Shown one piece after another: positions 6,401-40,267 of a stretch of 64,000 nucleotides of DNA (position 1 is the first letter of the stretch; each line of letters begins with the position of its first letter). The DNA lies in contig JAIPBH010000007.1 in the NCBI GenBank assembly GCA_021739635.1, positions 1 through 64,000 on the forward strand. The letters run 5' to 3'. A program made the translations under genes and the position numbers. Under the pieces are notes generated by a model. The model did no database searches. It was not told the DNA's origin and saw only the letters and a list, made by a program, of their open reading frames with translations. The stretch comes from Flavobacteriaceae bacterium (GTDB taxonomy: Bacteria; Bacteroidota; Bacteroidia; Flavobacteriales; Flavobacteriaceae).

Positions 6401-7821
6401 TCTGCCAACTTAATTAAAGTTGGATTTACGCGTTTTTCATCTTCTTGATTATGGCGCATAATTTCAACATATAAATCATCCTGAAACTGTTCTTTCCACC
6501 ACAACAAAGCTTCTTCTGCCTGATTTTCTCCAATATTTAAAACCTTACTAGGCACTTCACCATATAAATTACCTGTAAGGACTATTAAATCATCTTTATA
6601 TCTTTCAATTAATTTTCGGTCAATTCTTGGCACATAATAAAACCCATCTGTATAAGCAATAGATGATAATTTTGCTAAACTATGATAACCTTTTTTGTTT
6701 TTTGCAAGCAGGACTATTTGATAGCCATTATCTTTCCTAGACTTATCTAAATGATTGTCACAAACAAAAAACTCACAACCTAAAATGGGTTTAATTTCAT
6801 TTAGAGTTGGCAATTCTCCTTTTGCAATGGCCTCTTCATTTTTGGCCTTTACTGCTTTATTATGAAACGTTACTTCTTTTACAAAATGAAAAGCACCCAT
6901 CATGTTTCCGTGATCGGTTAATGCTACTGCAGGCATATTATATTTTGCTGCTGAAGCCACTAATTTTTTAATACTTATGGTAGATTGTAAAATGGAAAAT
7001 TGCGAATGATTGTGAAGATGAACAAAATCAACATCTGCCAATTCTGCAATGTTTTCTTTAATCTCTTGTGATGAGATTGTTGTTGAAACAGATTTTTTTA
7101 ATTGCTCCCTAATTTTTGCACTTTCATTTTTTAGGTTGATATGTTTTAAACCTAAAAGTTGAATTTCTGTTGGATTGTACTCGTTGAATTCTTTAAAATA
7201 ATCTGGCTTAACATCTAATTGCTCTTTTGTAAATTCACTCAAACGAATCAATTCAAAAAAGCATCGTGTTGTAGCCTCCACATCGGCGGTTGCATTATGA
7301 GCTTCAACAAAGCGTTCATTAAACAAAAACTCATGCAATTCTGAAAGTGTAGGCAATTTAAATTTACCATATCGTCCACCAGGGATTTGACATAAAGCAG
7401 CTGTATGTTCTGTACAGGTATCTAAAACTGGTAATTGTTGCAATACATTATCTAGCCCTTCTCTGAAAAATTCAGCACCCATAATGTTTAAGTCAAACTT
7501 GACGTTTTGACCAACAATAAATTTAGTCTTACTTAAAGCTTCATTAAATTTTTGTAAAACCTCAATTAATGGGATACCTTGTTCTTGAGCCAACTCTGTA
7601 GAAATACCATGAATTTTCTCTGCATCAAAAGGAATATTAAACCCTTCTGGTTTAACCAAATAATCTTGGTGCTCTATACAATTACCAAAAGCATCATGCA
7701 ATTGCCATGCTATTTGTATGCATCTTGGCCAGTTGTTTGAATCACTAATAGGTGCATCCCAACGTTTTGGCAAACCTGTAGTTTCAGTATCAAAAATTAA
7801 ATACATAGAGTTATTTTTCAC
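3421..7821 (-). CDS. dnaE: DNA polymerase III alpha subunit with N-terminal proofreading exonuclease
   Basis: The 1466-residue replicative DNA polymerase. Residues about 5-195 are a DnaQ-type DEDDh 3'-5' exonuclease: D11 and E13 in FDTETTG, D110 in NVKFD, H175 and D180 in HNATAD. A linker leads to a PHP domain starting near 266 (FVHLHNHSQFS). The polymerase core has PGRGSAAGS and the catalytic aspartates in PDIDIDFDDEGR. A helix-hairpin-helix and an OB fold (LTFGGVVTDVQHR) form the C-terminal part. E. coli DnaE is about 1160 residues; the extra length is the exonuclease, normally a separate epsilon subunit. The arrangement is known from flavobacterial DnaE. No intein or frameshift is seen. 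It is transcribed divergently from the cytochrome locus. Confidence 0.97.
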   Translation of the reverse strand: MKNNSMYLIFDTETTGLPKRWDAPISDSNNWPRCIQIAWQLHDAFGNCIEHQDYLVKPEGFNIPFDAEKIHGISTELAQEQGIPLIEVLQKFNEALSKTKFIVGQNVKFDLNIMGAEFFREGLDNVLQQLPVLDTCTEHTAALCQIPGGRYGKFKLPTLSELHEFLFNERFVEAHNATADVEATTRCFFELIRLSEFTKEQLDVKPDYFKEFNEYNPTEIQLLGLKHINLKNESAKIREQLKKSVSTTISSQEIKENIAELADVDFVHLHNHSQFSILQSTISIKKLVASAAKYNMPAVALTDHGNMMGAFHFVKEVTFHNKAVKAKNEEAIAKGELPTLNEIKPILGCEFFVCDNHLDKSRKDNGYQIVLLAKNKKGYHSLAKLSSIAYTDGFYYVPRIDRKLIERYKDDLIVLTGNLYGEVPSKVLNIGENQAEEALLWWKEQFQDDLYVEIMRHNQEDEKRVNPTLIKLAEQHNIKIIATNNTYYAEQEDANAHDILLCVKDGEKQATPIGRGRGYRYGMPNKEYFFKSSEAMKSLFKDLPQAISNIKEVVDKIEDYQLSREVLLPKFDIPKEFVNEEDKIDGGKRGENAYLRHLTYQGAEKRYADLTPEIKERLDFELEVIEKTGYPGYFLIVEDFIREARNMDVSVGPGRGSAAGSVVAYCLWITNIDPLKYDLLFERFLNPDRISMPDIDIDFDDEGRGRVMDYVIKKYGSNQVAQIITYGTMAAKSSIRDTARVLDLPLFDADRIAKLIPTMSKLNKIFGLSEKELNSTFRAEDLEKVNQLLNISEGEDLEAETINLAKILEGSLRNTGIHACGVIITPSDITDFVPVATAKDSDLYVTQFDNSVVEEAGLLKMDFLGLKTLTLIKDTVKIVKAKHGILLDPDNFPLDDDKTYELFQKGETVGVFQYESPGMQKHLKDLKPSVFDDLIAMNALYRPGPMEYIPSFVKRKHGEETIDYDLPAMEEYLKDTYGITVYQEQVMLLSQKLADFTKGEADVLRKAMGKKQIAVLDKMKPKFIEQAGAKGHDKDKLEKIWKDWEAFASYAFNKSHSTCYAWIAYQTAYLKAHYPAEYMAAVLSNNMNDIKQVTFFMEECKRMKLNVLGPDVNESYYKFSVNKDNAVRFGMGAVKGVGHGAVKTIVENRKENGHYKSIFDLAKRIDLRAANKKAFENLALAGGFDCFTETHRAQYFQDEGDGITFLEKAIRYGSKHQENENSSQVSLFGDASDIQIAEPQVPPCETWGTMEKLAREKEVVGIYISGHPLDDFKTEMNTFCNASLAMFKDLEACVNKELTFGGVVTDVQHRVTKQGKGWATFTVEDYTDSFEFRIFGEEYLKFRHFLLKNSFVFVKAFIREGWMNKDTQKMGEPRLQFNNFQLLHDVMDSYAKKLSIQLNIKEIQSDKIIALNDLLNMHPGSQILNFVVYDHDESIKLNMPSRKKKIKISQELLEELENQQVYYKLN

Positions 7822-7945
7822 AATAAATAAGCGTGTTAAAAATACTAATTATTACCTATTTATACGGGTTAAATTATAATCACTTATAAACAAAAAAAAG
7901 TGCTTAAAATCACACTTTAAAGTTTTTTCAAAATAAAATCATATA

Positions 7946-7988
7946 TGACAAAAATCATATTTTGAGTAACATTTGTTACATAATTTTA
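7946..7988 (+). promoter_or_regulatory. CRP/FNR-type promoter of the multiheme cytochrome operon
   Basis: TGACAAAAATCA (7946-7957) fits TGAY-N4-RTCA. After exactly 23 bases comes TAATTTTA (7981-7988), one mismatch from the -7 consensus. Transcription would start near 7993, placing the palindrome centre at about -41.5 as in class II CRP/FNR activation. The same geometry recurs at seven other promoters in this window. The regulator is not encoded here. Confidence 0.65.
7966..7979. promoter_or_regulatory. GTAAC-N4-GTTAC palindrome
   Basis: The perfect inverted repeat GTAACATTTGTTAC has its centre 21 bases from the TGA palindrome and about 20 bases before the predicted transcription start, so a bound protein would overlap the promoter. 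Matching palindromes occur at 14642-14655 and 18479-18492, but upstream of the TGA box there. It is probably the site of a second regulator. Confidence 0.5.
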
Positions 7989-8026
7989 CACCAAGATTTT
8001 AAATAAAATATCAAAATACAGTTATT

Positions 8027-9166
8027 ATGAAAAATTTCAAATTAATAATAAACTTGGTTATCGTTGTATCCAGTTTAATGTTTTTCCAATGTACCAGTGA
8101 GTATACACCCATAGTAGGACCAGCTGGAGCAGATGGTGTTGATGGTGTTGACGGTGTTGATGGCGTGGATGCCTCAGCAGCGGCTTGTATTACATGTCAC
8201 TCTTCTACACATCGCAACCCAATAATTAATGCTTATGCCACTTCTGGACATGGTTCTGGTGGTTCATGGGCTAGAGGCACAAGTGCAGATTGCGCACAAT
8301 GTCACAACAATGAAGGTTATATTGATTACTTATCTGGTAATTTTTATGCTATTGATGGAACTACAGGCGATTATGCTACTCATCCTGTTACAGGTGAATT
8401 AATTCCTTCTGCAAATCCAAACGGATACGCTGTGTCTAATCCTATTAATTGTACAGGTTGTCATACCGCTCACAGATCATTTGATTTTGAAAATGATGGT
8501 AACGATTATGCTCTAAGAAATATTGATCCTGTTAAACTAGACTTAGACCCAACCATTACCATTGACTTTGCAAATAGCGCAGATGCACTAGGATTAAGTA
8601 ATGCTTGTATTACATGTCACCAACCAAGAACTAGTTATCCTATTCCTGTTGGAACAGCAGATATAACTATTACTAGTTCTAGATACGGACCACACCATGG
8701 CCCACAAAGTACCATGTTAGAAGGTATTATGGGTGCTAATATAGCTGGATCTACCGGTTATCCTGGAGTTGCTAGTTCTACACACAGAACTGGTTCTTCA
8801 TGCGTTGCATGTCATATGGGAGAATCTACAGTGGCTACCGAAGGTGGACATACTTGGATTCCTTCTCCTGATGCTTGTGTAACTTGCCATACCAATGGAG
8901 CTCCTACAGAAGTTGCAGGTTTTGCACAAGACTTTTCAACATTACATGATTTATTAGTGGCCAAAGGGTATATATCTGCAACTGGTAGTGTACTAGGTGC
9001 AAGCGGATCAAACGCTAGTGGAACAAACCCACTTGTTGTTCCAATAAAAGATGCGCAAGCTATTTGGAATTACAAAACTTTAGAAGAAGATAAAAGTAAC
9101 GGTGTACACAATCCAACGTATGCTAAAGCTTTACTTAAAAACTCTATTGAAGCCCTACAAGATTAA
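8027..9166 (+). CDS. Six-heme c-type cytochrome lipoprotein
   Basis: A 379-residue exported lipoprotein (signal ending MFFQC, lipid cysteine C22) with six CxxCH heme motifs starting at about residues 54, 89, 142, 194, 259 and 284. Extra histidines (GHGSGG, HTAH, GPHHGP, EGGHTW) could give bis-His hemes. Residues 37-49 are a collagen-like GVD repeat, probably a flexible stalk between the membrane anchor and the heme domain. It leads an operon with a one-heme lipoprotein and a DUF5777 barrel. The likely role is periplasmic or outer-membrane electron transfer, possibly as terminal reductase or surface conduit. The substrate cannot be deduced. It does not show the CxxCK heme typical of NrfA. Transcription probably starts at the CRP/FNR-type promoter 34 bases upstream. 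Confidence 0.88.
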   Translation: MKNFKLIINLVIVVSSLMFFQCTSEYTPIVGPAGADGVDGVDGVDGVDASAAACITCHSSTHRNPIINAYATSGHGSGGSWARGTSADCAQCHNNEGYIDYLSGNFYAIDGTTGDYATHPVTGELIPSANPNGYAVSNPINCTGCHTAHRSFDFENDGNDYALRNIDPVKLDLDPTITIDFANSADALGLSNACITCHQPRTSYPIPVGTADITITSSRYGPHHGPQSTMLEGIMGANIAGSTGYPGVASSTHRTGSSCVACHMGESTVATEGGHTWIPSPDACVTCHTNGAPTEVAGFAQDFSTLHDLLVAKGYISATGSVLGASGSNASGTNPLVVPIKDAQAIWNYKTLEEDKSNGVHNPTYAKALLKNSIEALQD

Positions 9167-9182
9167 TAGCTAGATATTTTAT

Positions 9183-9216
9183 ATAGCTCAGGAGATAAAA
9201 ATCACTCCTGAGCTAT
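9183..9216 (+). terminator. 12-bp hairpin after the six-heme cytochrome gene
   Basis: A perfect stem ATAGCTCAGGAG / CTCCTGAGCTAT with a 10-base loop, not followed by a T run. It is more likely a transcript-stabilising or attenuating hairpin than a full terminator, and could make the cytochrome mRNA more abundant than the downstream genes. Confidence 0.5.
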
Positions 9217-9247
9217 TAATAATGTCATGCTGTTTTTTAAAAATAGC

Positions 9248-9278
9248 TAACAAAAATTTCTAATTGACATTTTTGTTA
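9248..9278. repeat. Inverted repeat before the one-heme lipoprotein gene
   Basis: TAACAAAAAT / ATTTTTGTTA separated by 11 bases, 27 bases before the next start codon. It could be an RNA hairpin or an operator. No function is assigned. Confidence 0.35.
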
Positions 9279-9304
9279 AAAGTTAAAAATTAAAATAAAA
9301 CAAA

Positions 9305-9673
9305 ATGAAAAAACTATTAAAAATAGTTCTCGTTAGCAGTATAACTTTGTTGTTTTTTTCATGTTATTATGATGAATTCCCTGAAGAAGTTGCCGTGGTG
9401 ATACCAGAAAATCAAGTAGTTTCATTTGCAGATGATATTGCACCTATTTTTGTAACATACAACTGTACGGAATGTCATAATGCAACTGGACAAAGTCCAA
9501 ACTTAACTGCTAGCAGCCAATACACATCTTTGGTACCATCATATGTTATCGCAGGAAACAGCAATAGTAGTGACCTCTACACCATGCTAGCCATTAATGA
9601 TCATAGAAATGTAGATGCAGAATCTTTGGCGCTGATAAAAAAATGGATAGATGATGGCGCTGAGAATAACTAA
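9305..9673 (+). CDS. One-heme cytochrome c-like lipoprotein
   Basis: A 122-residue lipoprotein: signal ending LLFFSC (lipid cysteine C20), then a domain with a single heme motif CTECH at residues 54-58 preceded by DDIAPIFVTYN. That layout resembles the short cytochrome domains of Bacteroidota and Planctomycetes (DDIxPIF..xCxxCH) rather than class I cytochromes. The C-terminus ends KKWIDDGAEN, also typical of those domains. It sits between the six-heme lipoprotein and the DUF5777 barrel with short spacing, so it is probably a partner electron carrier at the outer membrane. A distal methionine ligand is possible (YTMLAIND) but uncertain. Confidence 0.82.
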   Translation: MKKLLKIVLVSSITLLFFSCYYDEFPEEVAVVIPENQVVSFADDIAPIFVTYNCTECHNATGQSPNLTASSQYTSLVPSYVIAGNSNSSDLYTMLAINDHRNVDAESLALIKKWIDDGAENN

Positions 9674-9690
9674 CCTTAAAGACGTTACAA

Positions 9691-10563
9691 ATGAAAAATT
9701 ATAAAATATTACTGTTTACTTTCTTAATGGCTCCAATATTTTGCTTTTCACAAGAAAAAGCAAAGGATTCAATTGAAGAAAAACCAGAACGTCCAGCGTT
9801 TGAAAGTTCTAGCATCATTGACAACCAAACCAATGTTCTTTTCCAAAAAAACACTTTAGAAGTGATGATGCAACATAGATTTGGATTGATTGATGAAGAA
9901 AACTCATTATTGGGAATTTACGGAGCCAATTCAAATATTAGAATAGGCTTATCATATGCTTTTTTAGATTGGGTAACCGTAGGTTATGGCATTACTAAAA
10001 AAAATAGGGTTAGCGATTTTAGCTTAAAAGTAGGCATTTTACAACAAACAAGATCTGGAAGCACACCTTTAAGTGCTACCTATTACGGAAACGTAGGCAT
10101 AGATGGCCGTTCTGGAGATTCAAATGATGGTCTTTTTATTACAAAACAAGACAGATACTCATATTTCCATCAATTAATTATTGCTCGTAGATTTAGCCCA
10201 AAAGTATCATTACAAATTGCCCCTAGTTTTTCTCATTACAATGCAGTAGATTTTGGGTATGAAAACGATAGATTTTCAGTTGCTTTTGGAGGACGCATAA
10301 AAATAAGCCCACAAACATCCATTATATTTGATTACAGTCAGCCGATAACAAGCTTTGAAGATGATGCTACAACCGGTTTAAGCTATAACAATCCTGGAAT
10401 TAGTTTAGGTGCAGAGTTTGCAACGTCTGCCCATGCATTTCAAATATTTATTACAAACTATAGCGGTATTGTACCACAACAAAACTATATGAGAAATACC
10501 AACGATTTCTTTGATAAAGGAATATTAATTGGATTTAATATTACAAGAGTTTATAATTTTTAG
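9691..10563 (+). CDS. DUF5777 family outer-membrane beta-barrel protein
   Basis: A 290-residue exported protein with a signal peptide ending CFSQ/EKAK. The mature part alternates hydrophobic and polar residues in strand-length blocks and ends in an aromatic residue (ITRVYNF), as outer-membrane barrels do. The sequence resembles the DUF5777 family (SIIDNQTN, LEVMMQHRFG, IRIGLSYAFLDW), which is common beside cytochromes in Bacteroidota. It lies 17 bases after the one-heme lipoprotein gene. The inferred role is a barrel that holds or positions the cytochromes, loosely like the porin of a porin-cytochrome conduit. A plain structural or transport role is equally possible. Confidence 0.8.
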   Translation: MKNYKILLFTFLMAPIFCFSQEKAKDSIEEKPERPAFESSSIIDNQTNVLFQKNTLEVMMQHRFGLIDEENSLLGIYGANSNIRIGLSYAFLDWVTVGYGITKKNRVSDFSLKVGILQQTRSGSTPLSATYYGNVGIDGRSGDSNDGLFITKQDRYSYFHQLIIARRFSPKVSLQIAPSFSHYNAVDFGYENDRFSVAFGGRIKISPQTSIIFDYSQPITSFEDDATTGLSYNNPGISLGAEFATSAHAFQIFITNYSGIVPQQNYMRNTNDFFDKGILIGFNITRVYNF

Positions 10564-10583
10564 TAAATTTTTCTTAACTTTAG

Positions 10584-10630
10584 CAGTATAACATATAAAA
10601 AACCATTAATATGTTATACTGTTTTTTTTT
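10584..10630 (+). terminator. Intrinsic terminator inside the electron-transfer locus
   Basis: A perfect 13-bp stem CAGTATAACATAT / ATATGTTATACTG with a 12-base loop, followed by nine T. It follows the DUF5777 gene by 20 bases and separates the cytochrome/barrel genes from the FeS/NrfD genes. I see no good TAnnTTTG promoter between it and the next gene, so read-through may set the ratio of the two halves. Confidence 0.85.
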
Positions 10631-10662
10631 AAGCATCATTTTTTTTACCTTAAAATAAATAT

Positions 10663-10932
10663 ATGTCAAACCCTTTAAAAAAAGATAAAAAATTATCCAG
10701 AAGGAGCTTCTTCCCTTTTTTAGGGACTTCTTTTCTTCTTCCCTTTTTAGGATTTGGCGAATCTTCAGCAAAAAAAACCATAGACAAAAGTGCTAATGAT
10801 GATTATGTAACATTGTTAAAACCAGACGGCACTATTGTAAAAGTAAAAGCAAACTCTTTAAAAAATTCAAGAGTCATTAATAAAAATATCTCAAATTCCT
10901 CATTTCTTAAGTGGCTAGATAAAAAAGTTTAA
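10663..10932 (+). CDS. Small Tat-signal protein sharing a module with the iron-sulfur subunits
   Basis: An 89-residue protein with a twin-arginine signal (SRRSFFPFLG followed by a hydrophobic stretch). Its mature part contains VTLLKPDGTIVKVKANSL. The same short module follows the Tat signals of both iron-sulfur subunits downstream (IELMTTDGTIVEVDASEV and IRVLTPDGKMVEVDAKSI). It has no cysteines and so cannot bind an Fe-S cluster. It ends in a basic tail (FLKWLDKKV). It could be an assembly or docking factor for the complex, or a remnant left when an iron-sulfur gene was lost. The context (24 bases before the FeS gene) supports cotranscription. No published function is known to me. Confidence 0.7.
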   Translation: MSNPLKKDKKLSRRSFFPFLGTSFLLPFLGFGESSAKKTIDKSANDDYVTLLKPDGTIVKVKANSLKNSRVINKNISNSSFLKWLDKKV

Positions 10933-10956
10933 TCAATACTAACACATACATTCACT

Positions 10957-11940
10957 ATGGAAAATAACAGTAAAAATAATAGGCGTTATTTTCTTGATAA
11001 TGGGTTAAAACTTGGATTGGCAGCAATAATTGGTGGAATAGGATTTTCAAAAATAGCTTCAAAACTATACGGAAAGCAAGACAACAATTCTAACAATAAA
11101 ATAGAATTGATGACTACCGATGGAACCATTGTTGAAGTTGATGCCTCAGAAGTTGTTGAAGTAACCCATTCTCAAGATCATGAAACCAAATACAATCTTC
11201 GAGAAGGTATGCCCAACAGAAAATTTGTAATGGTTATAGATTTGGCTAAATGTAAAAATGCCTTAAAATGCCAATCTGCCTGCAACAAACACCATTACAT
11301 AACAGGAGAACATGCTTGGTTAAAAGTTTATAAGATGCAGGAAGAGGAAGACACAGCTCCATATTGGATGCCAACTACCTGCATGCATTGTGATCATCCA
11401 GCCTGCGTTACTGTTTGCCCTGTTGATGCTACTTTTAAAAGAAGAGATGGCTTGGTGTTAATTGACAATGAACGTTGTATTGGATGCCGTTTTTGCATGG
11501 CAGCTTGCCCATACTCAACCCGAGTGTTTAATTGGAGTGAACCTGATTATGGAGAATCAAGTGAAATAGTAATGCATATGAACATGGCCCATGAACCTAA
11601 AAATTCTATTGAATTTGCTGGCATGCCAAGTAAAGTAGGCACTGTAGATAAATGTGATTTTTGCCCGCATGCAATTAAAGAAAATGAATTGCCACATTGC
11701 GTAACCGCTTGTCCTAATGGAGTGTTTTATTTTGGTGATAAATATGAAGATACGGTTACTAATGGTGACGAAACTCTACAATTAAGCAAACTCTTAAAAG
11801 ATAAGAGTGGTTACAGGCTCATGGAAGGATTAGGCACAAAACCAAGTGTATATTATCTGCCACCTGTAAATAGATTGGTTGATTTTAAAGATGGATTGGA
11901 TGATTTTAGAAATTTTAATTCTGTAGAAAAAATTAATTAA
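10957..11940 (+). CDS. Tat-exported iron-sulfur electron-transfer subunit, unit 1
   Basis: A 327-residue protein of the DmsB/NrfC/HybA iron-sulfur family. A Tat signal (NNRRYFLDNG plus a hydrophobic helix) directs it to the periplasm. After the DGTIVEVDAS module come four cluster motifs: CKNALKCQSAC, CMHCDHPACVTVC, CIGCRFCMAAC and CDFC...HCVTAC. The first motif has only three cysteines in the usual CxxCxxCxxxC frame (the second is Ala), so that cluster may be [3Fe-4S] or use another ligand. In this family the subunit takes electrons from, or gives them to, an NrfD-type membrane subunit, which is the next gene 3 bases on. No molybdopterin subunit follows, unlike Dms or alternative complex III. 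Confidence 0.93.
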   Translation: MENNSKNNRRYFLDNGLKLGLAAIIGGIGFSKIASKLYGKQDNNSNNKIELMTTDGTIVEVDASEVVEVTHSQDHETKYNLREGMPNRKFVMVIDLAKCKNALKCQSACNKHHYITGEHAWLKVYKMQEEEDTAPYWMPTTCMHCDHPACVTVCPVDATFKRRDGLVLIDNERCIGCRFCMAACPYSTRVFNWSEPDYGESSEIVMHMNMAHEPKNSIEFAGMPSKVGTVDKCDFCPHAIKENELPHCVTACPNGVFYFGDKYEDTVTNGDETLQLSKLLKDKSGYRLMEGLGTKPSVYYLPPVNRLVDFKDGLDDFRNFNSVEKIN

Positions 11941-11943
11941 TTT

Positions 11944-13275
11944 ATGGAAATTTCTAATAAACTAATCAACGACTTAGCTCCAACTAAGTTTGGAAAAAGA
12001 GGTGTTATTTGGACCATCTCATTAATTATAATCAGTATTGCAGGTATAATTGCCTATATAGATCAAGTCGTTAAAGGGCAAGTAGTCACCAATATGAATG
12101 ACTATGCCTTATGGGGCATTTATATTTCAAACTTTGTTTTTTTTGTAGCTACGAGTTTTGTTGGAGCTGTCACTGTCGCCGTTTTAAGACTGACCAACAA
12201 TGCATGGAGAACCCCTATTGTTAGAATAGCAGAGATTATTTCAGTAGCATCCATAATCATGGCAGGATTAACCATTATGATTGATATGGGTAGACCAGAC
12301 AGGTTATTGTACCTTTTTATTCATGGTAGAATGCAATCACCCATCATTTGGGATGTTATCATTATTCCAACCTACATTGTTATTTGTTTGTTACTCCTTT
12401 ATTTTCCATTATTACCAGATTTGGCCATACTCAAAAACCATTTTAGTAAAACAAATCCAAAACTAAGTAAATGGTACGGGATACTTTCCTTGAATTGGTC
12501 AGGCAGCGAAAAACAAAAATCCATCCAACTAAAGTCCATTCAAATTATTGCCATTCTAATTATTCCTGCTGGATTTGTTTTACAAACGGTTGACGCCTGG
12601 TTGTTTTCGACATTATTTAGAGTTGGTTGGGATAGCACCAATATGGGTGCTTACTTTATATCTGGAGCCTCTGTTGCTGGTGTTGGTGCTTTGGTAACCG
12701 TTATGTATGTTATTAGAAGAGCTAATAAATTGGAAGCCTATATTACAGATTATCATTTTGATAAACTAGGTAAGTTTTTAGTGCTAACCTGTTTAATATA
12801 TTTATATTTCAACATTAATGAATACGTTATCCCTGAGTTTACTTCAAAAAAAGAAGAAATAACGCATTTAAATCATTTATATTCTGGTCAATATGCCCCT
12901 TTATTTTGGTTTGTAATTATTGGTGGACTCATTATTCCAATCATCGTTCTATTATTTAAAAAAGGAAGAAAACCACTTCCTATGTTTTATGTAGGCATGC
13001 TAGTAGTTATAGGATCTTGGTGGAAACGCTTTTTAATTGTAACACCTACGCTATTACAACCTTTTTTACCCATTCAAGGTGTACCGGAATCTTGGCACCA
13101 TTATTTTCCAAGCTTTCATGAGTGGATTATTACATTCGCTACATTGGCCATGGCGCTTTTAATTATTACATTTTTGGTAAGATACTTGCCTATTGTTCCT
13201 ATACAAAGAACGGCAGATGAGCAAGAAGAAACTGAAATCAATAAGTCTGTAATCAGCAAAACAGTAACGCCATGA
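11944..13275 (+). CDS. NrfD/PsrC-like membrane quinone-interacting subunit, unit 1
   Basis: A 443-residue polytopic protein with about ten hydrophobic segments, matching the NrfD/HybB/PsrC family. The conserved arginine-rich loop DMGRPDR after the third helix is visible, as is an interhelical NDYALWGIYIS segment at the N-terminus. Family members exchange electrons with menaquinol or ubiquinol at the periplasmic face and pass them to a DmsB-like Fe-S subunit, here the gene just upstream. It overlaps the next gene by 4 bases (ATGA), indicating translational coupling. It shares its gene order and general sequence with the unit 2 protein at 15742-17076 but is clearly diverged from it. Confidence 0.9.
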   Translation: MEISNKLINDLAPTKFGKRGVIWTISLIIISIAGIIAYIDQVVKGQVVTNMNDYALWGIYISNFVFFVATSFVGAVTVAVLRLTNNAWRTPIVRIAEIISVASIIMAGLTIMIDMGRPDRLLYLFIHGRMQSPIIWDVIIIPTYIVICLLLLYFPLLPDLAILKNHFSKTNPKLSKWYGILSLNWSGSEKQKSIQLKSIQIIAILIIPAGFVLQTVDAWLFSTLFRVGWDSTNMGAYFISGASVAGVGALVTVMYVIRRANKLEAYITDYHFDKLGKFLVLTCLIYLYFNINEYVIPEFTSKKEEITHLNHLYSGQYAPLFWFVIIGGLIIPIIVLLFKKGRKPLPMFYVGMLVVIGSWWKRFLIVTPTLLQPFLPIQGVPESWHHYFPSFHEWIITFATLAMALLIITFLVRYLPIVPIQRTADEQEETEINKSVISKTVTP

Positions 13276-14165
13276 AGCATATAATTAAGATTCGGTATAT
13301 CATATATTTATCAATAGCATTAATGTTTATTGCCTTTGGTTTTCAAAAAAATTATGCTCAATCTAAAAATACAGTAAGATTAAAAGCAGATTATTTTAAA
13401 ATTATAAATGGAGACATTTATTTTGATATTAAAGCAAGTTCAAAGATTGATAAACAAACGGTAGACGTTTCAAATATTGAAATTTTAATATCAAATATTA
13501 TTAAAGATGATGAAGAAATTGAGATTGGAACCGTAACAACCAATATGAATGGTGAAGGTAGGTTTACATTAAAAAGTTTAAGTTTAATACAACCAGATTC
13601 TACAAACACCTATAATATTAATTTCGCGTTTAAGGGAAATACAGATTTTAAAAAAGCCTCAAAAACCATAAGCTTTAAAGACGCAAATATAGAAGCAGAA
13701 TTAATTGAAAAAGATAGCCTTAACTTTATTAAAGCAACTTTATTTGATGCTAGTTCTAATAAACCATTAACTGATAGATTACTAACCGTTCAACTACAAA
13801 GATTATTTAAACCATTAAGAGTTGGCTCTGAATTTAATTCCACAGATGAGAGTGGCACTATTATTGTACCTATAAAAGAACGTTTACCAGGTGTAGACAG
13901 AATTTTAGTTTTTGAAGTCGTTCTAAAAGATAGTGAAGATTATGGAACCGTAAAATCAATTATTAAAGCTCCTATTGGAATTCCCATTGTTGACGAATCA
14001 ACTTTTGATGAAAGAACCATGTGGTCTCCAAGAAACAAAACACCTTATTTATTGCTTATTTTCCCAAACTTGCTAATTTTGGCACTATGGGGTTTAATAA
14101 TTTATTTAATCATTAACCTATATAAAATTTCGAAATCTAAATTAAAAAACCATGAAAACAGTTAA
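13272..14165 (+). CDS. Signal-anchored periplasmic protein of unknown function, unit 1
   Basis: A 297-residue protein with an N-terminal signal (to about residue 30, ending NYAQ) and one C-terminal transmembrane helix (about 258-284) followed by a lysine-rich tail. The bulk therefore faces the periplasm with a short cytoplasmic end. The periplasmic part is beta-rich with two Ig-like stretches (TTNMNGEGRFTLKSL, STDESGTIIVPIKE) that resemble carboxypeptidase-regulatory or Big-type repeats. There is no cysteine or heme motif. It overlaps both neighbours (4 bases with NrfD, 14 with the cytochrome), so it is surely part of the same complex or operon. A counterpart occurs in unit 2. The function is not recognised; a scaffold for the cytochrome is a guess. 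Confidence 0.75.
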   Translation: MKHIIKIRYIIYLSIALMFIAFGFQKNYAQSKNTVRLKADYFKIINGDIYFDIKASSKIDKQTVDVSNIEILISNIIKDDEEIEIGTVTTNMNGEGRFTLKSLSLIQPDSTNTYNINFAFKGNTDFKKASKTISFKDANIEAELIEKDSLNFIKATLFDASSNKPLTDRLLTVQLQRLFKPLRVGSEFNSTDESGTIIVPIKERLPGVDRILVFEVVLKDSEDYGTVKSIIKAPIGIPIVDESTFDERTMWSPRNKTPYLLLIFPNLLILALWGLIIYLIINLYKISKSKLKNHENS

Positions 14166-14550
14166 AATTTTTACCATTTTAGGAATAGTTTCTTTTGTAT
14201 TCTTTTCATTTACAAGCATTATGCAAGACAAATGGGTTGTTCCTGCAAAATATCAAAGCATGAAAAACCCAACAGACCCAAAAGCAGATGTTGCCATAGG
14301 AAAATCTTTATACGATAAACACTGTAAATCTTGTCACGGCAAAGAAGGTTATGGCGATGGGCCAAAAGCAGATGGACTTAAAGGAGACTTAGGGGATTTT
14401 TCTTCAGCAGAATTCCAAAAACAATCTGACGGTGCCTTATTTTATAAAACCACATTTGGAAGAGATGATATGCCTGAGTATAGCAAAAAAGTACCATCAG
14501 ATGAAGACAGATGGCTTATTGTTAACTATATGAGAACATTAAAAGAGTAA
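14152..14550 (+). CDS. Mono-heme class I cytochrome c, unit 1
   Basis: A 132-residue cytochrome c with an N-terminal hydrophobic segment (signal or anchor, residues 4-23), heme motif CKSCH at 58-62 and a probable methionine ligand at about 107 (GRDDMPEY). The fold signature at the end, DRWLIVNYMRTL, is typical of class I cytochromes. It probably receives electrons from the FeS/NrfD unit. From residue 25 onward it is nearly identical to the unit 2 cytochrome, differing at two residues. It overlaps the preceding gene by 14 bases and is followed by a strong terminator. Confidence 0.93.
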   Translation: MKTVKIFTILGIVSFVFFSFTSIMQDKWVVPAKYQSMKNPTDPKADVAIGKSLYDKHCKSCHGKEGYGDGPKADGLKGDLGDFSSAEFQKQSDGALFYKTTFGRDDMPEYSKKVPSDEDRWLIVNYMRTLKE

Positions 14551-14600
14551 TTTTTTTTAATATATTTTCTTAAAACCCGAACAAAATTTGTTCGGGTTTT
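14224..14600 (+). repeat. Direct repeat copy 1 (cytochrome c gene end and terminator)
   Basis: This stretch recurs at 18061-18438 with a constant offset of 3837 bases through the coding part. By hand I count about 15 differences in 327 coding bases, 13 of them silent. It includes the terminator and grades into a similar regulatory region. The rest of the duplicated unit is far more diverged. Confidence 0.85.
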
Positions 14601-14603
14601 TTT
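14572..14603 (+). terminator. Terminator of unit 1
   Basis: AAAACCCGAACAAA pairs with TTTGTTCGGGTTTT and is followed by further T. It ends the 10663-14550 transcript. Confidence 0.9.
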
Positions 14604-14641
14604 GTTACAAAAATCCATAAAACCTTAAAAAGCTTCATTGT

Positions 14642-14704
14642 GTAACATTAGTTACAAAATATGATTTTAATCATATGTTTTTTAAATGCCATCCTCTAAT
14701 TTTG
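14642..14704 (+). promoter_or_regulatory. CRP/FNR-type promoter of unit 2 with second palindrome
   Basis: GTAACATTAGTTAC (14642-14655) is followed by TGATTTTAATCA (14662-14673), exactly 23 bases, and a perfect -7 element TAATTTTG (14697-14704). Transcription should start near 14709. The TGA palindrome would centre at about -41.5 and the GTAAC palindrome at about -60.5. The arrangement equals that before hemA. Confidence 0.75.
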
Positions 14705-14744
14705 ACTAAAATAATAACATATTAATATATGTTTCTCTAATATT

Positions 14745-15725
14745 ATGGCAAATAAAAAAACAGAAGAAGGCAGTAATAACAGACGTAATTTTTTACGTTT
14801 AGGTTTAATGTCAAGCGTAAGTGCTGTTGCTGGGGCGACTTTAATATCCAATTTAACAGCAGATGAAGTTGAACCTTCAGGAGAAAAAATTAGAGTACTT
14901 ACACCAGATGGTAAAATGGTTGAAGTTGATGCTAAAAGCATAAATAAATATCCTGAAGCTGTAATTACACCAACAGAGTCTAGAAAAGGCATTCCAGACA
15001 AAAAATTTGTAATGGTTATTGACTTGGCCAAATGTAAAAATGCAAGAAAATGCGTTGAAGGCTGCCAAAAAGCTCACAAGCTTGATGATCATGAAGAGTT
15101 TATGAAAGTTCAACTTATTCAAAATAATGAAGAAGGATCTCCATATTGGTTTCCAAAACCATGTTTCCATTGTGATGAGCCTCCTTGTGTAACAGTTTGT
15201 CCAACTGGTGCTACTTTTAAAAGAGAAGACGGCATAGTATTAATTGATAACGAACGTTGTATAGGTTGCAAATTTTGTATTACTAGTTGCCCTTATTCTG
15301 CAAGACAGTTCAATTGGGGTCATAAAGAAAAATTTGAAGATAAATCTCAACCATATTCACCAGAAACACAAGTTCCTGCTGCTGAAGGTACTGTTATGAA
15401 ATGCGATTTTTGTCCAGATATGCTAAGACAAGGAAAATTACCACATTGCGCAACAGCTTGCCCTATGGGAGTTATTTATTTTGGTGATAAAAATGAAGAT
15501 ATTGTTACCAATGGCTCTGAGACCGTAAGTTTTTCACAACTTATTAAAGACAGAGGTGGCTACAGACATTTAGAGCATTTAGGCACCAAACCTAACGTGT
15601 ATTATTTACCAGCTGTAAACAGACAATTCCCAGTAGAACGGGGCTTTGATGTTGATGAGGAAATTATAGAACGCTATAAAGATGTTCCCTTCGTTAAGGA
15701 ACTTAAAGAACAGGGAAAACTTTAA
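14745..15725 (+). CDS. Tat-exported iron-sulfur electron-transfer subunit, unit 2
   Basis: A 326-residue paralogue of the unit 1 iron-sulfur protein. It has a Tat signal NNRRNFLRLG, the module IRVLTPDGKMVEVDAKSI, and four cluster motifs: CKNARKCVEGC (three cysteines, second position Ala as in unit 1), CFHCDEPPCVTVC, CIGCKFCITSC and CDFC...HCATAC. Long blocks are shared with unit 1 (KFVMVIDLAKCKNA, LIDNERCIGC, HLGTKPNVYYLP) but the two have diverged clearly. The C-terminus carries an extra tail of about 25 residues (RGFDVDEEIIERY...). It acts in the periplasm with the NrfD-like protein 16 bases downstream. It is driven by its own CRP/FNR-type promoter, so it may be expressed independently of unit 1. 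Confidence 0.93.
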   Translation: MANKKTEEGSNNRRNFLRLGLMSSVSAVAGATLISNLTADEVEPSGEKIRVLTPDGKMVEVDAKSINKYPEAVITPTESRKGIPDKKFVMVIDLAKCKNARKCVEGCQKAHKLDDHEEFMKVQLIQNNEEGSPYWFPKPCFHCDEPPCVTVCPTGATFKREDGIVLIDNERCIGCKFCITSCPYSARQFNWGHKEKFEDKSQPYSPETQVPAAEGTVMKCDFCPDMLRQGKLPHCATACPMGVIYFGDKNEDIVTNGSETVSFSQLIKDRGGYRHLEHLGTKPNVYYLPAVNRQFPVERGFDVDEEIIERYKDVPFVKELKEQGKL

Positions 15726-15741
15726 CTTAAAATCTTAGATT

Positions 15742-17076
15742 ATGGACATTATAAAAAGAAAAAGTGAATTAGTTAATGAGTTTTCTCCTATGTTGGAAAA
15801 ATCTACTAAAACTTCCAAAATTTGGGTTTCATTTTTAATACTCGTCATATTAATAGGCCTAGTTGCCTTCATTATTCAAGTGGTAAATGGTCATATTGTA
15901 ACAGGCATGAGAGATAATGTAGTATGGGGAATTTATATCATTAATTTTATATTCTTTGTATGCCTTAGTTATTCCGGAGCATTTATCTCTGGAATATTAC
16001 ACTTTTTTAAATCCCCTTGGAAAAATTCTGTTTCAAGAATTGTTGAAATTATTACCGTACTCTCATTAATCATAGGCCCTATTTTTATTCTATTGTGTAT
16101 TGGTAGGTTAGATAGATTGTATTTCTTATTTCTGTATCCTAGAATTCAATCGCCTATTACTTGGGATATTATAGCTATTATGACCGATTTATTGGGTTGT
16201 TTCATTTATCTATATCTTACATTCATTCCAGATTTTGCCATGTTGAGAGATAATAGTGAAAACGCCCCTAAATGGAGGCAAAAAATGTATAAAATATTAG
16301 CCATTAAATATTACGATACGCCAACACAAAGAGAAGCCTTACATAAAATAACCAGAACTATGTCTGTCATGGTTATTGCATTGGCCATTGTTGCGTATTC
16401 TGTTTTAGCATGGATATTTAGTTTAACCGTACAACCTGGATGGAACAGTTCCATATTTGCGCCATACTTTATTATTGCTGGATTATATTCTGGAGTTAGT
16501 GTTATTATCATTGCTATGTATTTAATTCGCAAGTTTTATCATTTAGACCACTATATTAGAAAAGTTCATTTTATGGGAGCTGGTGTTATTCTCCTCATTA
16601 TTTCAATATTATTTGGATATTTTACTTTTAGTGAATATTTCTCAAGATGGTTTAGCCATAAAATTGAAGACACTAAACTTTTAGACACACTATTCAACAG
16701 ATATTTCTGGTACTTTATTTTCGCCAATTATATTGGTGTTTTGGTTCCTGTTTTTATTCTATTCTTTAAAAAATTTAGAACCATAAAATCCATAACATTT
16801 GCCGCAGTCATAGCTATTTTAGGTTTGTATGTAAATAGATACCTTATTGTTGTTCCTACTTTAGAAACACCTTATTTACCAATTCAAGACACAAGGCCAG
16901 AATATATTCATTATACAGCAACTTGGATTGAATGGGCTTTAAGCTTTGCAGGTATTGCAGCATTCATCTTGTTCTTCATTTTAATTATGAGATTGGTACC
17001 TATCATTCCAATGTCTGGAATTATTGATTATGAAAGAGAGCAAAAAAGAAAACCTCATGCATCCAATAATCATTAG
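15742..17076 (+). CDS. NrfD/PsrC-like membrane quinone-interacting subunit, unit 2
   Basis: A 444-residue polytopic membrane protein, about ten helices, paralogous to the unit 1 NrfD. Shared landmarks include VWGIYIINFIFFV near the N-terminus and the RIQSPITWDI segment. The loop that reads GRPDR in unit 1 is GRLDR here, so the proline is replaced in a motif that is usually conserved near the quinone site. The C-terminus is basic (REQKRKPHASNNH). It most likely binds menaquinone and pairs with the FeS protein immediately upstream. The sequence difference from unit 1 could mean a different quinone potential or partner, but that is inference. Confidence 0.9.
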   Translation: MDIIKRKSELVNEFSPMLEKSTKTSKIWVSFLILVILIGLVAFIIQVVNGHIVTGMRDNVVWGIYIINFIFFVCLSYSGAFISGILHFFKSPWKNSVSRIVEIITVLSLIIGPIFILLCIGRLDRLYFLFLYPRIQSPITWDIIAIMTDLLGCFIYLYLTFIPDFAMLRDNSENAPKWRQKMYKILAIKYYDTPTQREALHKITRTMSVMVIALAIVAYSVLAWIFSLTVQPGWNSSIFAPYFIIAGLYSGVSVIIIAMYLIRKFYHLDHYIRKVHFMGAGVILLIISILFGYFTFSEYFSRWFSHKIEDTKLLDTLFNRYFWYFIFANYIGVLVPVFILFFKKFRTIKSITFAAVIAILGLYVNRYLIVVPTLETPYLPIQDTRPEYIHYTATWIEWALSFAGIAAFILFFILIMRLVPIIPMSGIIDYEREQKRKPHASNNH

Positions 17077-17081
17077 AAATT

Positions 17082-17981
17082 ATGAAAACTAAAATATTTC
17101 AATATTTATTTATATTTACCGCTCTAGCCTTTGTAAATCCTAATAGTTTTGCTCAAGAAACAAATCTGAAAAACTACAAAATACGCTTTGGTTTAAGCAC
17201 CACAAAACAAGCCGATAATTCGCGCATTTTAGAAGCAAGCTATGTAGCAGCCAATAAAAAAGACCGAAAAGATAGAGTTCCAATTTATGATGCCAACATT
17301 AACTTTTATAATGTATTTGCAGATGAAGAAGTGCTTTTAGGAACTGCTAAAACAGATCAAGAAGGTATTGCACAATTAATTGTACCTGCCAATCAATCAT
17401 ATACCACAAATGAAGAAGGCTATATTAATTTTAAAGCTGTTTTTGATGGTACCGATGGATTAGATTATGAAGAAGCTGAAGTTGCCGTTAAAGATGTGTT
17501 TCTAGAATTAAATTTAGAAGATATTGATAGCGTTAAAACAGTTATTTTAAATGCCTATACCTTAGATAGTTTACAAACTAAAATACCACTTGAAGAAACC
17601 GAAATTATATTTTCTGTAGGTGGCATGCTTTCAAAAATGCCTATTAAGCAAGATAATATTTCGGAAGGACGTTTTGAATTTGAATTTCCAGAACATATTT
17701 CAGGCGATAAAAATGGCAACATTGATGTTTTTGCCTCAATTATTGATAATGATGAGTACGGAAATGTTATTCAGAAAAAAAATATTGCTTGGGGAATAAA
17801 CAAAAATATTATTACAGAAAGTAATCAGCTTTGGTCTGATGTTGCACCCATTTGGATGTATGTTGTACTATCCATTTTATTAATTGGTGTTTGGGCAAAT
17901 TATGCCTACAGCATTAAAAACTTATTTAATATTAAAAAAGAAGGAAAAGAATTAGAATTAAAATCAGAAAATGAAAACTAA
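17082..17981 (+). CDS. Signal-anchored periplasmic protein of unknown function, unit 2
   Basis: A 299-residue protein organised like the unit 1 protein at 13272-14165. The signal peptide ends NSFAQ/E, a large beta-rich periplasmic domain follows with stretches such as KTDQEGIAQLIVP and KAVFDGTDG, and then one C-terminal helix (about 259-280) and a charged cytoplasmic tail. It has no cysteines and no heme motif. Sequence similarity to unit 1 is low by eye, but position, length, topology and the DxEG-type beta repeats agree. It lies 5 bases after NrfD and just before the cytochrome gene. It is probably a structural subunit of the same complex; I do not recognise the family. Confidence 0.75.
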   Translation: MKTKIFQYLFIFTALAFVNPNSFAQETNLKNYKIRFGLSTTKQADNSRILEASYVAANKKDRKDRVPIYDANINFYNVFADEEVLLGTAKTDQEGIAQLIVPANQSYTTNEEGYINFKAVFDGTDGLDYEEAEVAVKDVFLELNLEDIDSVKTVILNAYTLDSLQTKIPLEETEIIFSVGGMLSKMPIKQDNISEGRFEFEFPEHISGDKNGNIDVFASIIDNDEYGNVIQKKNIAWGINKNIITESNQLWSDVAPIWMYVVLSILLIGVWANYAYSIKNLFNIKKEGKELELKSENEN

Positions 17982-17988
17982 ATTTAAC

Positions 17989-18387
17989 ATGAAAACAGTA
18001 AAATTATTAATGATCGTTGGAGTTATAAGCATTAGCCTTTTAGCATTCACAAAAGTAGAACAAGAAAAATGGGTGGTACCTGCAAAATATCAAAGCATGA
18101 AAAACCCAACAAACCCAAAAGCAGATGTTGCCATAGGCAAATCTTTATATGATAAACACTGCAAATCTTGCCACGGTAAAGAAGGTTATGGCGATGGCCC
18201 AAAAGCAGATGGCCTTAAAGGAGATTTAGGAGATTTTTCTTCAGCAGAATTCCAAAAACAATCTGACGGTGCCTTATTTTATAAAACCACATTTGGAAGA
18301 GATGATATGCCTGAATATAGTAAAAAAGTACCATCAGATGAAGACAGATGGCTTATTGTTAACTATATGAGAACATTAAAAGAGTAA
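17989..18387 (+). CDS. Mono-heme class I cytochrome c, unit 2
   Basis: A 132-residue cytochrome c with an N-terminal hydrophobic signal or anchor, heme motif CKSCH at 58-62 and a putative Met ligand at about 107. I chose the ATG at 17989 (MKTVKLLMIVG) rather than the one at 17971 because it aligns with the unit 1 start (MKTVKIFTILG); the upstream ATG lies inside the end of the previous gene. Residues 25 to the end match unit 1 except for two changes (Asp to Glu, Asp to Asn), while the leader peptides differ. It probably accepts electrons from the unit 2 FeS/NrfD proteins, and the near-identity suggests both units feed a common partner. Confidence 0.92.
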   Translation: MKTVKLLMIVGVISISLLAFTKVEQEKWVVPAKYQSMKNPTNPKADVAIGKSLYDKHCKSCHGKEGYGDGPKADGLKGDLGDFSSAEFQKQSDGALFYKTTFGRDDMPEYSKKVPSDEDRWLIVNYMRTLKE

Positions 18388-18438
18388 TATCTTTTTATAA
18401 ATATATTTTTTAAAACCGAACAAATTTTGTTCGGTTTT
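18061..18438 (+). repeat. Direct repeat copy 2 (cytochrome c gene end and terminator)
   Basis: Second copy of the repeat at 14224-14600. It is about 95 percent identical in the coding part by hand count, including two uninterrupted identical runs of more than 60 bases, and is followed by a matching terminator and regulatory region. Confidence 0.85.
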
Positions 18439-18441
18439 TTT
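18412..18441 (+). terminator. Terminator of unit 2
   Basis: AAAACCGAACAAA pairs with TTTGTTCGGTTTT, followed by more T. It is homologous to the terminator of unit 1, one base pair shorter in the stem. Confidence 0.9.
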
Positions 18442-18478
18442 GTTTAAAAATCAATAAAATTTTAAAAAACATCATTAT

Positions 18479-18541
18479 GTAACATATGTTACAAAATATG
18501 ATAAATGTCATTATCTATCTAAGCTTCTGTGCCTACCTTTG
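18479..18541 (+). promoter_or_regulatory. CRP/FNR-type promoter of hemA with second palindrome
   Basis: GTAACATATGTTAC (18479-18492), then TGATAAATGTCA (18499-18510), then exactly 23 bases and a perfect -7 element TACCTTTG (18534-18541). The spacing of all three elements equals that at 14642-14704. The predicted transcription start is near 18546, 50 bases before the hemA ATG. Confidence 0.75.
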
Positions 18542-18595
18542 ACAATATATCTATTAGTTATATAATTTTTTAAAGCCTTTAGAGTTAAGCTAATT

Positions 18596-30289: not shown

Positions 30290-30295
30290 ATTATT

Positions 30296-32215: not shown

Positions 32216-32226
32216 GATTAGATATA

Positions 32227-32544
32227 TTAATATTTCATAATTTCAGTGTCTTTAACCTCAACCGAACTAATTTGCCTGTAAAGATTAATGATGATGGATA
32301 CAGCCAAAGCGGTTTCTGCCGCAGCAACTGCTATAATAAAAATGGCAAAAATGACGCCTTGTAGCATATCGGGATATAAATATTTGTTGATAACAACAAA
32401 ATTTACAACCGATGCATTCAATATCAATTCAATTGAAATCAATACCGAAATCAAATTTTTTCTTGTTATAAAACCGTAAATTCCAATGAAAAATAAGATG
32501 GATGTTACTGTTAAAATTTCGTATATACTAATGCCTGCTATCAT
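32227..32544 (-). CDS. nuoK: NADH-quinone oxidoreductase-like subunit K
   Basis: A 105-residue, three-helix membrane subunit. The conserved membrane glutamates are in SIELILNAS and the AAETALAVSI helix (MRP antiporter MnhC-like fold). It overlaps nuoJ by 4 bases, giving translational coupling. Its length is standard. Confidence 0.96.
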   Translation of the reverse strand: MIAGISIYEILTVTSILFFIGIYGFITRKNLISVLISIELILNASVVNFVVINKYLYPDMLQGVIFAIFIIAVAAAETALAVSIIINLYRQISSVEVKDTEIMKY

Positions 32545-33065: not shown

Positions 33066-33069
33066 ATTC

Positions 33070-33546: not shown

Positions 33547-33550
33547 ACCT

Positions 33551-34624: not shown

Positions 34625-34625
34625 T

Positions 34626-36215: not shown

Positions 36216-36226
36216 AACTTCTTATT

Positions 36227-37158: not shown

Positions 37159-37180
37159 TTAAATATTTTCTTTTAAAATT

Positions 37181-37223
37181 CAAAATTAGTGGTATTAATT
37201 AACCTGATTACTGACTTATGTCA
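37181..37223 (-). promoter_or_regulatory. CRP/FNR-type promoter of the nuo operon
   Basis: On the minus strand TGACATAAGTCA (37212-37223), then exactly 23 bases, then a perfect -7 element TAATTTTG (37181-37188). Transcription should start near 37176. The palindrome is the same 12-mer as the nifJ-proximal site at 40823-40834. Confidence 0.75.
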
Positions 37224-37234
37224 GTTTTCAAAAT

Positions 37235-38248: not shown

Positions 38249-38250
38249 AA

Positions 38251-40107: not shown

Positions 40108-40135
40108 AATTTATACTTCATTAATTTATGAAAAA

Positions 40136-40148: not shown

Positions 40149-40164
40149 TTATATTTAAAGTAAC

Positions 40165-40238: not shown

Positions 40239-40267
40239 TACTACATTATAATAAAAAATTAAAAATT

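Follow-up and report, generated by a model that had tools for sequence, protein, structure and literature searches.

Positions 8027 to 18387 of a 64,000-nucleotide stretch of DNA from a Flavobacteriaceae bacterium (GenBank assembly GCA_021739635.1, contig JAIPBH010000007.1; this whole stretch is called the window here) hold a block of redox genes, conserved in some marine flavobacteria, that raises a question: where do electrons go from two tandem NrfD units that have neither a molybdoenzyme (PF00384) nor NrfA proper beside them? The original prediction for this DNA named a six-heme lipoprotein, a one-heme lipoprotein and a DUF5777 barrel, followed by two units that each have a twin-arginine translocation (Tat) iron-sulfur (FeS) protein, an NrfD protein, an anchored periplasmic protein and a mono-heme cytochrome. 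All of these parts are found in place on the plus strand. We propose, with a probability of roughly 55%, that the block encodes a single respiratory module in which electrons travel from menaquinol, at the inner membrane, to the external surface of the cell, and that the six-heme lipoprotein, hex6, is its terminal reductase.

A hexaheme lipoprotein with a predicted NrfA-superfamily fold

The hex6 gene (8027 to 9166, plus strand) encodes a candidate terminal surface oxidoreductase with CXXCH motifs at residues 54, 89, 142, 194, 259 and 284; the protein begins like a lipoprotein, at Cys22. Its Pfam matches above cut-off are Cytochrome_C7 (36.8 bits), an MtrC/MtrF domain (30.3 bits, cut-off 30), Paired_CXXCH (26.2 bits) and Cytochrom_c3_2 (25.3 bits). 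The best of five AlphaFold2 (AF2) models built from an input of 36 sequences has a predicted local distance difference test score (pLDDT) of 81, and the other four range from 65 to 77. A Foldseek search with the model puts OcwA first (E = 9e-5, template modelling score 0.44), then OmhA (E = 0.013) and Onr (E = 0.04). VIA alignments give the same two leading neighbors, OcwA (Z = 13.1, root-mean-square deviation (rmsd) 3.5, 234 aligned residues) and OmhA (Z = 13.0, rmsd 3.9, 241 residues), ahead of NrfA (Z = 11.9, rmsd 4.3, 240 residues), Onr (Z = 11.7, rmsd 4.3, 228 residues) and MccA (Z = 8.0, rmsd 5.3, 185 residues). The predicted model has both the multiheme fold and the C-terminal helices of the NrfA superfamily (VIA Z = 10.8 to 13.1 over 225 to 254 residues), and a hex6 profile search of PDB sequences finds Onr (E = 1.6e-12) and OcwA (E = 8.3e-11). 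By prediction, hex6 is a member of this superfamily that is nearest to OcwA and OmhA. The original prediction had suggested that hex6 could be the terminal reductase, and this role is supported as a likely one. The accompanying statement that the block lacks a catalytic subunit holds for PF00384 molybdoenzymes and for NrfA proper; it needs revision for hex6, which is itself a catalytic candidate by predicted fold and profile.

The likeness to OcwA, which the Gram-positive iron reducer Thermincola potens has as a cytochrome on its surface (PDB 6i5b; PMC6703420), extends from the NrfA-type fold to the heme order and probably to a His pair between corresponding hemes. Hemes 2, 3, 5 and 6 of hex6 align directly with OcwA hemes 5, 6, 8 and 9, with hemes 1 and 4 paired by their order. 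In the Onr alignment, heme 2 of hex6 falls on the CXXCK heme, and in a lower-scoring segment of the OcwA alignment (17.2 bits) it falls on OcwA heme 5, which is described as open with the His pair 380/381 above it (PMC6703420). An OcwA numbering offset of 29, at which the first His pair 281/282 is chain index 252/253, puts 380/381 between hemes 7 and 8, and His223-His224 of hex6, between hemes 4 and 5, would then stand at the matching place. Outside the heme motifs, His149, His223, His253, His275 and His361 are present in all 36 hex6 sequences and His75 in 35, while position 224 is His in 28 and Tyr in eight. Judged from the alignment, these conserved residues would suffice to give five of the hemes bis-His ligation and leave the sixth open. 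OcwA differs in having nine hemes rather than six, with 23% identity over the 234 aligned residues, and hex6 is a lipoprotein of a Gram-negative envelope encoded next to an NrfD unit, a barrel and a one-heme lipoprotein. OmhA, a cytochrome of the iron reducer Carboxydothermus ferrireducens that is described as a proposed surface reductase (PDB 6qvm; PMC7829351), shares the fold but is an undecaheme protein (11 hemes) of a Gram-positive envelope.

Conservation and distribution of the block

We examined 79 named loci from the NrfD alignment, which are the best of at least 594 pattern matches. They come mostly from Flavobacteriaceae (Yeosuana, Lutibacter, Eudoraea, Muriicola, Robiginitalea, Lutimonas, Seonamhaeicola and Aestuariivivens) and include metagenome-assembled genomes (MAGs), some labelled Cyclobacteriaceae. 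Neighbor counts are conditional on NrfD, and contig ends conceal neighboring genes at some loci. Upstream of NrfD1, 64 loci have at least 3.3 kb of sequence, and they carry the FeS gene in 64 cases, the barrel in 63, the one-heme lipoprotein gene lipo1 in 62 and a small Tat-signal open reading frame, tatS, in 56. At the 66 loci with at least 1.7 kb downstream, the anchored periplasmic protein (per) is present in at least 62 and the mono-heme cytochrome (cyt) in at least 64. The per figure is a lower bound, as L054, L065 and L107 were scored without the gene although they carry it. One record titled Bifidobacterium breve (L101, a MAG) also has a block of the flavobacterial type, and its label is probably wrong.

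The NrfD family is carried by eight of 60 sampled genomes, our own included (G000 to G005, G031 and G037), with best matches of at least 270 bits against at most 160 bits in the remaining genomes. At a threshold of E = 1e-10, hex6 is found in seven of these eight genomes and is absent from the other 52; the exception among the eight is G001, whose contig begins 92 bases ahead of lipo1. Since G006, from the same genus, has neither the NrfD family nor hex6, the block seems to be gained or lost as one whole. A phylum-wide sample has NrfD matches above 400 bits in eight of 296 genomes, and the next match, at 278 bits, lies in the range of ActC-type proteins. The 64-locus neighbor counts document the parts and their order, and together with the co-occurrence in the 60 genomes they bear out the claim of a conserved redox block without prior characterization. 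A literature search, judged by titles and abstract openings, found no paper that describes it.

Hex6 relatives also occur outside this setting. Among 44 other genomes with hex6-type matches, we read nine stretches, taken from eight genomes that belong to other classes, in open frames shorter than 500 residues, where the relatives are 25% to 32% identical to hex6. Three stretches (L158, L161 and L164) encode a protein of 408 to 431 residues that has a single CXXCH, next to a small Tat-like protein, which is a Rieske protein by Pfam in the one tested. Five of the nine (L160, L162, L163, L165 and L166) have a protein of 423 to 458 residues together with cytochromes of 12 to 14 and 6 to 8 hemes, and mostly also of 3 to 4 and 11 hemes; L159 shows neither setting. 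No Pfam family was found in the five large proteins tested beside hex6 relatives. As a guess, the proteins of 423 to 458 residues are barrels or porins, in which case the second setting would be a cluster of the porin-cytochrome type. The one-CXXCH proteins of the first setting (L158:5008-6234, L161:5565-6860 and L164:9614-10873) have the motif near the N-terminus and no Pfam family, and they are possibly fused cytochrome-barrels.

An interchangeable gene upstream of lipo1

The gene directly upstream of lipo1 was compared at 66 loci. It is hex6 at 24, a member of an EB_dh group at 22 and a diheme cytochrome at 10; a CXXCH-bearing EB_dh-like protein fills the slot once, efflux-adaptor-like proteins four times, and the gene is not seen at five loci. 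One member of each group was named by Pfam (EB_dh at 109 bits for L043, one of the 22; Cytochrom_C at 41.9 bits for L097, one of the 10), and the remaining members were joined to them by BLAST. All 22 EB_dh-group proteins have an invariant CX3CH motif, and eight of the 22 loci have hex6 as well, further upstream. No EB_dh protein is found in the window genome. Lipo1 and the barrel are constant partners, and the protein encoded before lipo1 varies between loci. We considered a link to heavy-metal efflux and set it aside; a minority of loci have efflux-type genes, named by reading the sequences, next to the block, and these are treated as neighbors.

The redox proteins of the slot were also compared at their lipoprotein starts. 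The +4 residue is acidic in 36 of 36 hex6, 18 of 18 EB_dh and 10 of 10 diheme sequences, compared with 10 of 37 other lipoprotein-like open reading frames of these loci, where the controls are distinct tails and the block proteins were not thinned. A surface export signal of the Bacteroidetes is described for Flavobacterium as S-D-D-F-E (PMC5080379).

The one-heme lipoprotein and the DUF5777 barrel

Lipo1 (9305 to 9673, plus strand) is a c-type lipoprotein with one CXXCH and the post-signal start C-Y-Y-D-E. The barrel gene follows directly (9691 to 10563, plus strand; PF19089 252.7 bits, cut-off 23.1) and encodes 290 residues for which AF2 predicts 12 strands (pLDDT 90). A fold search returns the generic barrels FapF, KdgM, NalP and NanC (Z about 17 to 18), which is uninformative on function, and a full-text search of the literature library used here found no paper on DUF5777. 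Three residues of the family (His62, His182 and His248) are invariant in 40 rows; because their parity by residue alternation is that of the hydrophobic positions, we claim no heme or metal in the barrel lumen. The pairing of barrel and one-heme lipoprotein recurs, since the second DUF5777 copies of two genomes show it as well. The one in this genome (C10; L152:7640-10071) adjoins a one-heme lipoprotein along with YceI-like and cupredoxin-like genes, and at the copy in G031 (L153:1809-3627) a YceI-like gene accompanies the one-heme lipoprotein, these accessory genes being named from sequence.

Porin-cytochrome conduits such as MtrCAB and Cyc2 combine an outer-membrane barrel with c-type cytochromes, as the block does. 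In the Mtr type a large barrel has a multiheme cytochrome embedded in it, and well-known conduits are larger than a 12-strand barrel with a one-heme lipoprotein. The block differs from MtrCAB and Cyc2 in its 12 predicted strands, its one-heme partner and its unfused arrangement. The original prediction had offered an extracellular conduit as one role for hex6 with the barrel. A wide Mtr-type multiheme conduit is unlikely with 12 predicted strands, and we rejected it as the leading interpretation, given a barrel of this size and a partner lipoprotein with a single heme.

Two inner-membrane units

Unit 1 comprises FeS1 (10957 to 11940; PF13247), NrfD1 (11944 to 13275; PF03916 102.1 bits, cut-off 25.8), per1 (13272 to 14165) and cyt1 (14152 to 14550; PF13442/PF00034), and unit 2 comprises FeS2 (14745 to 15725), NrfD2 (15742 to 17076; PF03916 118.6 bits, same cut-off), per2 (17082 to 17981) and cyt2 (17971 to 18387), all on the plus strand. 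The FeS proteins have an RR motif and 15 Cys residues, the anchored periplasmic proteins have a hydrophobic C-terminal segment, and the cytochromes have one CXXCH each. Neither per1 nor per2 matches a Pfam family above cut-off. FeS2 was scanned against NCBIfam only, where it has relatives; NrfD1 and not NrfD2 was included in the NCBIfam scan, and cyt2 was placed through cyt1, to which it is nearly identical past the signal region. A gene overlooked by the original prediction, tatS (10663 to 10932, plus strand; 89 residues), precedes FeS1. It has a Tat signal, resembles the N-terminal extension of the FeS proteins (LLKPDGTIVKVKANSL) and lacks the cluster Cys residues.

The NrfD sequences fall into three groups, u1 (87 sequences), u2 (17) and u3 (13), with clade supports of 0.89, 0.91 and 1.0, in a set of 117 in which a few sequences are present twice. 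The NrfD quinone site is described as having Asp, Glu, His or Ser at a position in transmembrane helix 2 that is linked to quinone protonation, and a Ser near the pocket entry (PMC8076601). At the alignment column of the protonation position, Asp is found in 87 of 87 u1 and 13 of 13 u3 sequences and Cys in 17 of 17 u2 sequences; the pocket Ser is kept in all 117. NrfD1 has Asp114 and Ser132, and NrfD2 keeps the Ser and has Cys in place of Asp114. This adds one residue-level fact to the earlier idea that the two units may work with different quinones. We did not adopt a reading of NrfD2 as a quinone-less subunit like ActF, which the Cys had suggested; G037 has a unit of the second type without unit 1, and the pocket Ser is kept.

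The 15 Cys residues of the FeS proteins are kept in 100 of 100 rows, and the sixteenth place is never Cys (Ala in 98). One cluster, the one with the three-Cys motif, may be [3Fe-4S]. ActB and QrcC are listed with one such cluster in Table 1 of PMC8076601.

At the DNA level, cyt1 and cyt2 are 92% identical over 446 columns, compared with 66% over 681 columns for FeS1 and FeS2, and the cyt pair of G003 is likewise alike. Because the cytochrome genes are so much more alike than the FeS genes, and because G003 repeats the pattern, we suggest that the two regions (14152 to 14600 and 17971 to 18438), which have similar hairpin ends, were homogenized by gene conversion, as if both units served one partner. 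These ends are terminator-like hairpins (intrinsic, plus strand) of 13 pairs and a T tail at 14572 to 14600 and of 12 pairs and a T tail at 18412 to 18438. Since hairpins end both cyt genes, hex6 to cyt1 and unit 2 may be separate transcripts. The region from 7700 to 18800 has 16 terminator-like sites on both strands, compared with 5.1 in shuffles.

By our reading of the adjacent sequences, the block is probably flanked by a dnaE-type gene (3421 to 7821, minus strand) and a hemA-type gene (18596 to 19813). Three relatives (L028:15627-18041, L029:15714-18123 and L034:1709-4118) have an extra cassette that separates the block from the hemA-type gene and is read from the other strand; it encodes an NrfD of 398 residues, an FeS protein of 258 to 259 residues and a tetraheme protein of 150 residues, and the window has no cassette there. 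An eleven-heme protein of 565 residues is encoded near the block of G031 (L032:17270-18967). Elsewhere in the window (28799 to 44442), complex I genes, three of them tested, lie beside two 2-oxoacid:ferredoxin oxidoreductase genes (38251 to 40107 and 40909 to 44442), a neighborhood hinting at a partly anaerobic metabolism.

Other catalytic subunits and alternative electron routes

The genome has four NrfD sites, namely unit 1, unit 2, C20 and C26. Its single PF00384 molybdoenzyme gene (C20) has FeS and NrfD genes of its own after it, which leaves no orphan PF00384 enzyme for the NrfD proteins of the block; PF00384 is the one molybdoenzyme family that was searched. The complex iron-sulfur molybdoenzymes (Psr, Dms, Ttr and Arr) thus have no PF00384 catalytic subunit to contribute here. 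DsrOP supplies the top NCBIfam models for FeS1 (173.9 bits) and NrfD1 (115.8 bits), but FeS1 and FeS2 (172.7 bits) are below the cut-off of 200, NrfD1 is below its cut-off of 350, and DsrM, DsrK and DsrJ are not in the block. The original prediction named homologues already assigned to a known enzyme as grounds for its refutation. Such homologues exist in part: the PDB holds superfamily relatives of hex6 with assigned functions, but the scores of FeS1, FeS2 and NrfD1 are under the cut-offs of known subunits.

The best-placed alternative, which we nevertheless consider unlikely, is a minimal quinol:cytochrome c oxidoreductase. The NrfD, FeS, per and cyt proteins would then be a trimmed relative of alternative complex III (ACIII; ActABCDEF) that feeds haem-copper oxidases or other acceptors, with hex6 as one more client. 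ACIII also combines FeS, NrfD and mono-heme cytochrome parts, the three-Cys motif in all FeS rows would fit the [3Fe-4S] assignment of ActB and QrcC, and the genome has two COX1 genes. However, pentaheme ActA, large ActB, ActD and ActF are absent beside the units, and a place for ACIII seems to be taken already. A tandem NrfD pair at C26 aligns as ActC and ActF, its ActC-type member being 26% identical to NrfD2, and from this pair we take C26 as a probable ACIII; one of the two COX1 genes is near it. Of five ActC rows in the alignment, L013 has a misread frame and is left out. The nearly constant position of unit 1 NrfD genes beside lipo1 and the barrel, and the co-occurrence of hex6, would also be needless for a general complex III.

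Next in order, and likewise improbable, is a role of hex6 in reducing soluble compounds such as nitrite, hydroxylamine or sulfite, in a lipoprotein system like NrfABCD that serves respiration or detoxification. Hex6 groups with NrfA, Onr and MccA by fold and sequence, NrfC/NrfD-type genes are adjacent to it as in the NrfABCD and Onr systems, and OcwA itself is described as reducing nitrite and hydroxylamine (PMC6703420). The details of hex6 point elsewhere. It has six CXXCH motifs and no CXXCK, the heme motif of nitrite reductases, and it scores 22.6 bits against PF02335, under the gathering score of 24.1. The Tyr of Onr CHVEY aligns with hex6 Arg201, which is invariant in all 36 sequences, and the QHPEAE segment of Onr has no aligned His in hex6; we take this Tyr and this His to have catalytic roles in Onr. 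With the CXXCK heme missing and Arg in place of Tyr, hex6 is unlikely to be a nitrite reductase of the usual kind. As a lipoprotein with an acidic +4 start that is encoded beside an outer-membrane barrel, and with additional mono-heme parts in the block, it also departs from the NrfABCD pattern. A clear NrfA was not found in the genome, where PF02335 gives only two weak matches. The second of these is an eight-heme protein of 755 residues at C10 (G000:C10:1874, L151:776-3043; 26.6 bits including frame neighbors).

The least probable route is inward, with surface proteins oxidizing an extracellular donor (a reduced metal, sulfur compound or organic) and NrfD/FeS reducing menaquinone, as suggested by QrcABCD and NhcABCD being listed as cytochrome:quinone oxidoreductases (PMC8076601, Table 1), by the 124.2-bit match of FeS1 to QrcC (under the cut-off of 400) and by the dehydrogenase for which EB_dh is named; against it, the two nearest relatives of hex6, OcwA and OmhA, are studied as reductases, and no known donor system is seen beside the block.

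A proposed route to the cell surface

Returning to the outward respiratory module that we prefer, NrfD and the Tat-exported FeS protein would oxidize menaquinol on the periplasmic side of the inner membrane and reduce the mono-heme cytochrome, with per1 and per2 as anchored partners. Lipo1 would accept electrons from the cytochrome and, together with the DUF5777 barrel of the outer membrane, hand them on to hex6. As a compact six-heme relative of OcwA that corresponds to OcwA hemes 4 to 9 in order, hex6 would be the terminal reductase of extracellular acceptors, which could be oxidized metals, flavins or quinones, or N-oxides. The order of the electron carriers, the menaquinol donor, the surface location, the direction of flow and the acceptor are what we infer around this arrangement of genes. 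In other species an EB_dh-related CX3CH protein or a diheme cytochrome takes the place of hex6 or stands alongside it, so the inner part may supply electrons to various partners and the choice of substrate may lie with the outer protein. A comparable idea is already in print for Melioribacter roseus, in which NrfCD without a molybdoenzyme is proposed to supply electrons to multihaem cytochromes and to a hypothetical Fe(III) reductase on the outer side (PMC3534657); the hexaheme protein, the barrel and the one-heme lipoprotein are not described in the part of that account cited here.

Several observations weigh against this module. A small predicted barrel and a one-heme lipoprotein would leave the crossing of the outer membrane by electrons without explanation. 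The hex6 models are uneven, with mean pLDDT falling from 81 to 65 across the five, and every Pfam match of hex6 above cut-off is a generic multiheme model. In the +4 comparison the block proteins are related to one another and the control is mixed, and the lipoprotein starts, mostly C-T-S-D/E, only resemble the published S-D-D-F-E signal and do not match it exactly. Four of the 66 slot genes look like efflux adaptors rather than redox proteins, and NrfD2 has no acid at the quinone position. The ACIII-type NrfD pair and the two COX1 genes make oxygen respiration possible, and the NrfD family belongs to a minority of the phylum sample, the eight of 296 genomes given above.

A more ambitious and tentative interpretation, which we think has the weaker case, is that extracellular electron transfer takes a form of its own in some flavobacteria. 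Lipo1 and the 12-strand barrel would form a small, split porin-cytochrome across the outer membrane that is fed by NrfD, FeS and cytochrome units of three paralogous types. Three unrelated surface families (the OcwA-like hexaheme protein, the CX3CH EB_dh protein and the diheme cytochrome) would share the slot, and unit 2, with its Cys, would be adapted to a different quinone or redox state.

If the proposed module is real, scattered Flavobacteriaceae, including 13 loci from named species, would be able to send electrons to their surface along a path that is overlooked by searches for MtrCAB, Cyc2 or NrfA. It would give DUF5777 its first functional setting, and it would be a compact example, outside the Gram-positive bacteria, of a surface cytochrome that uses the nitrite-reductase fold.

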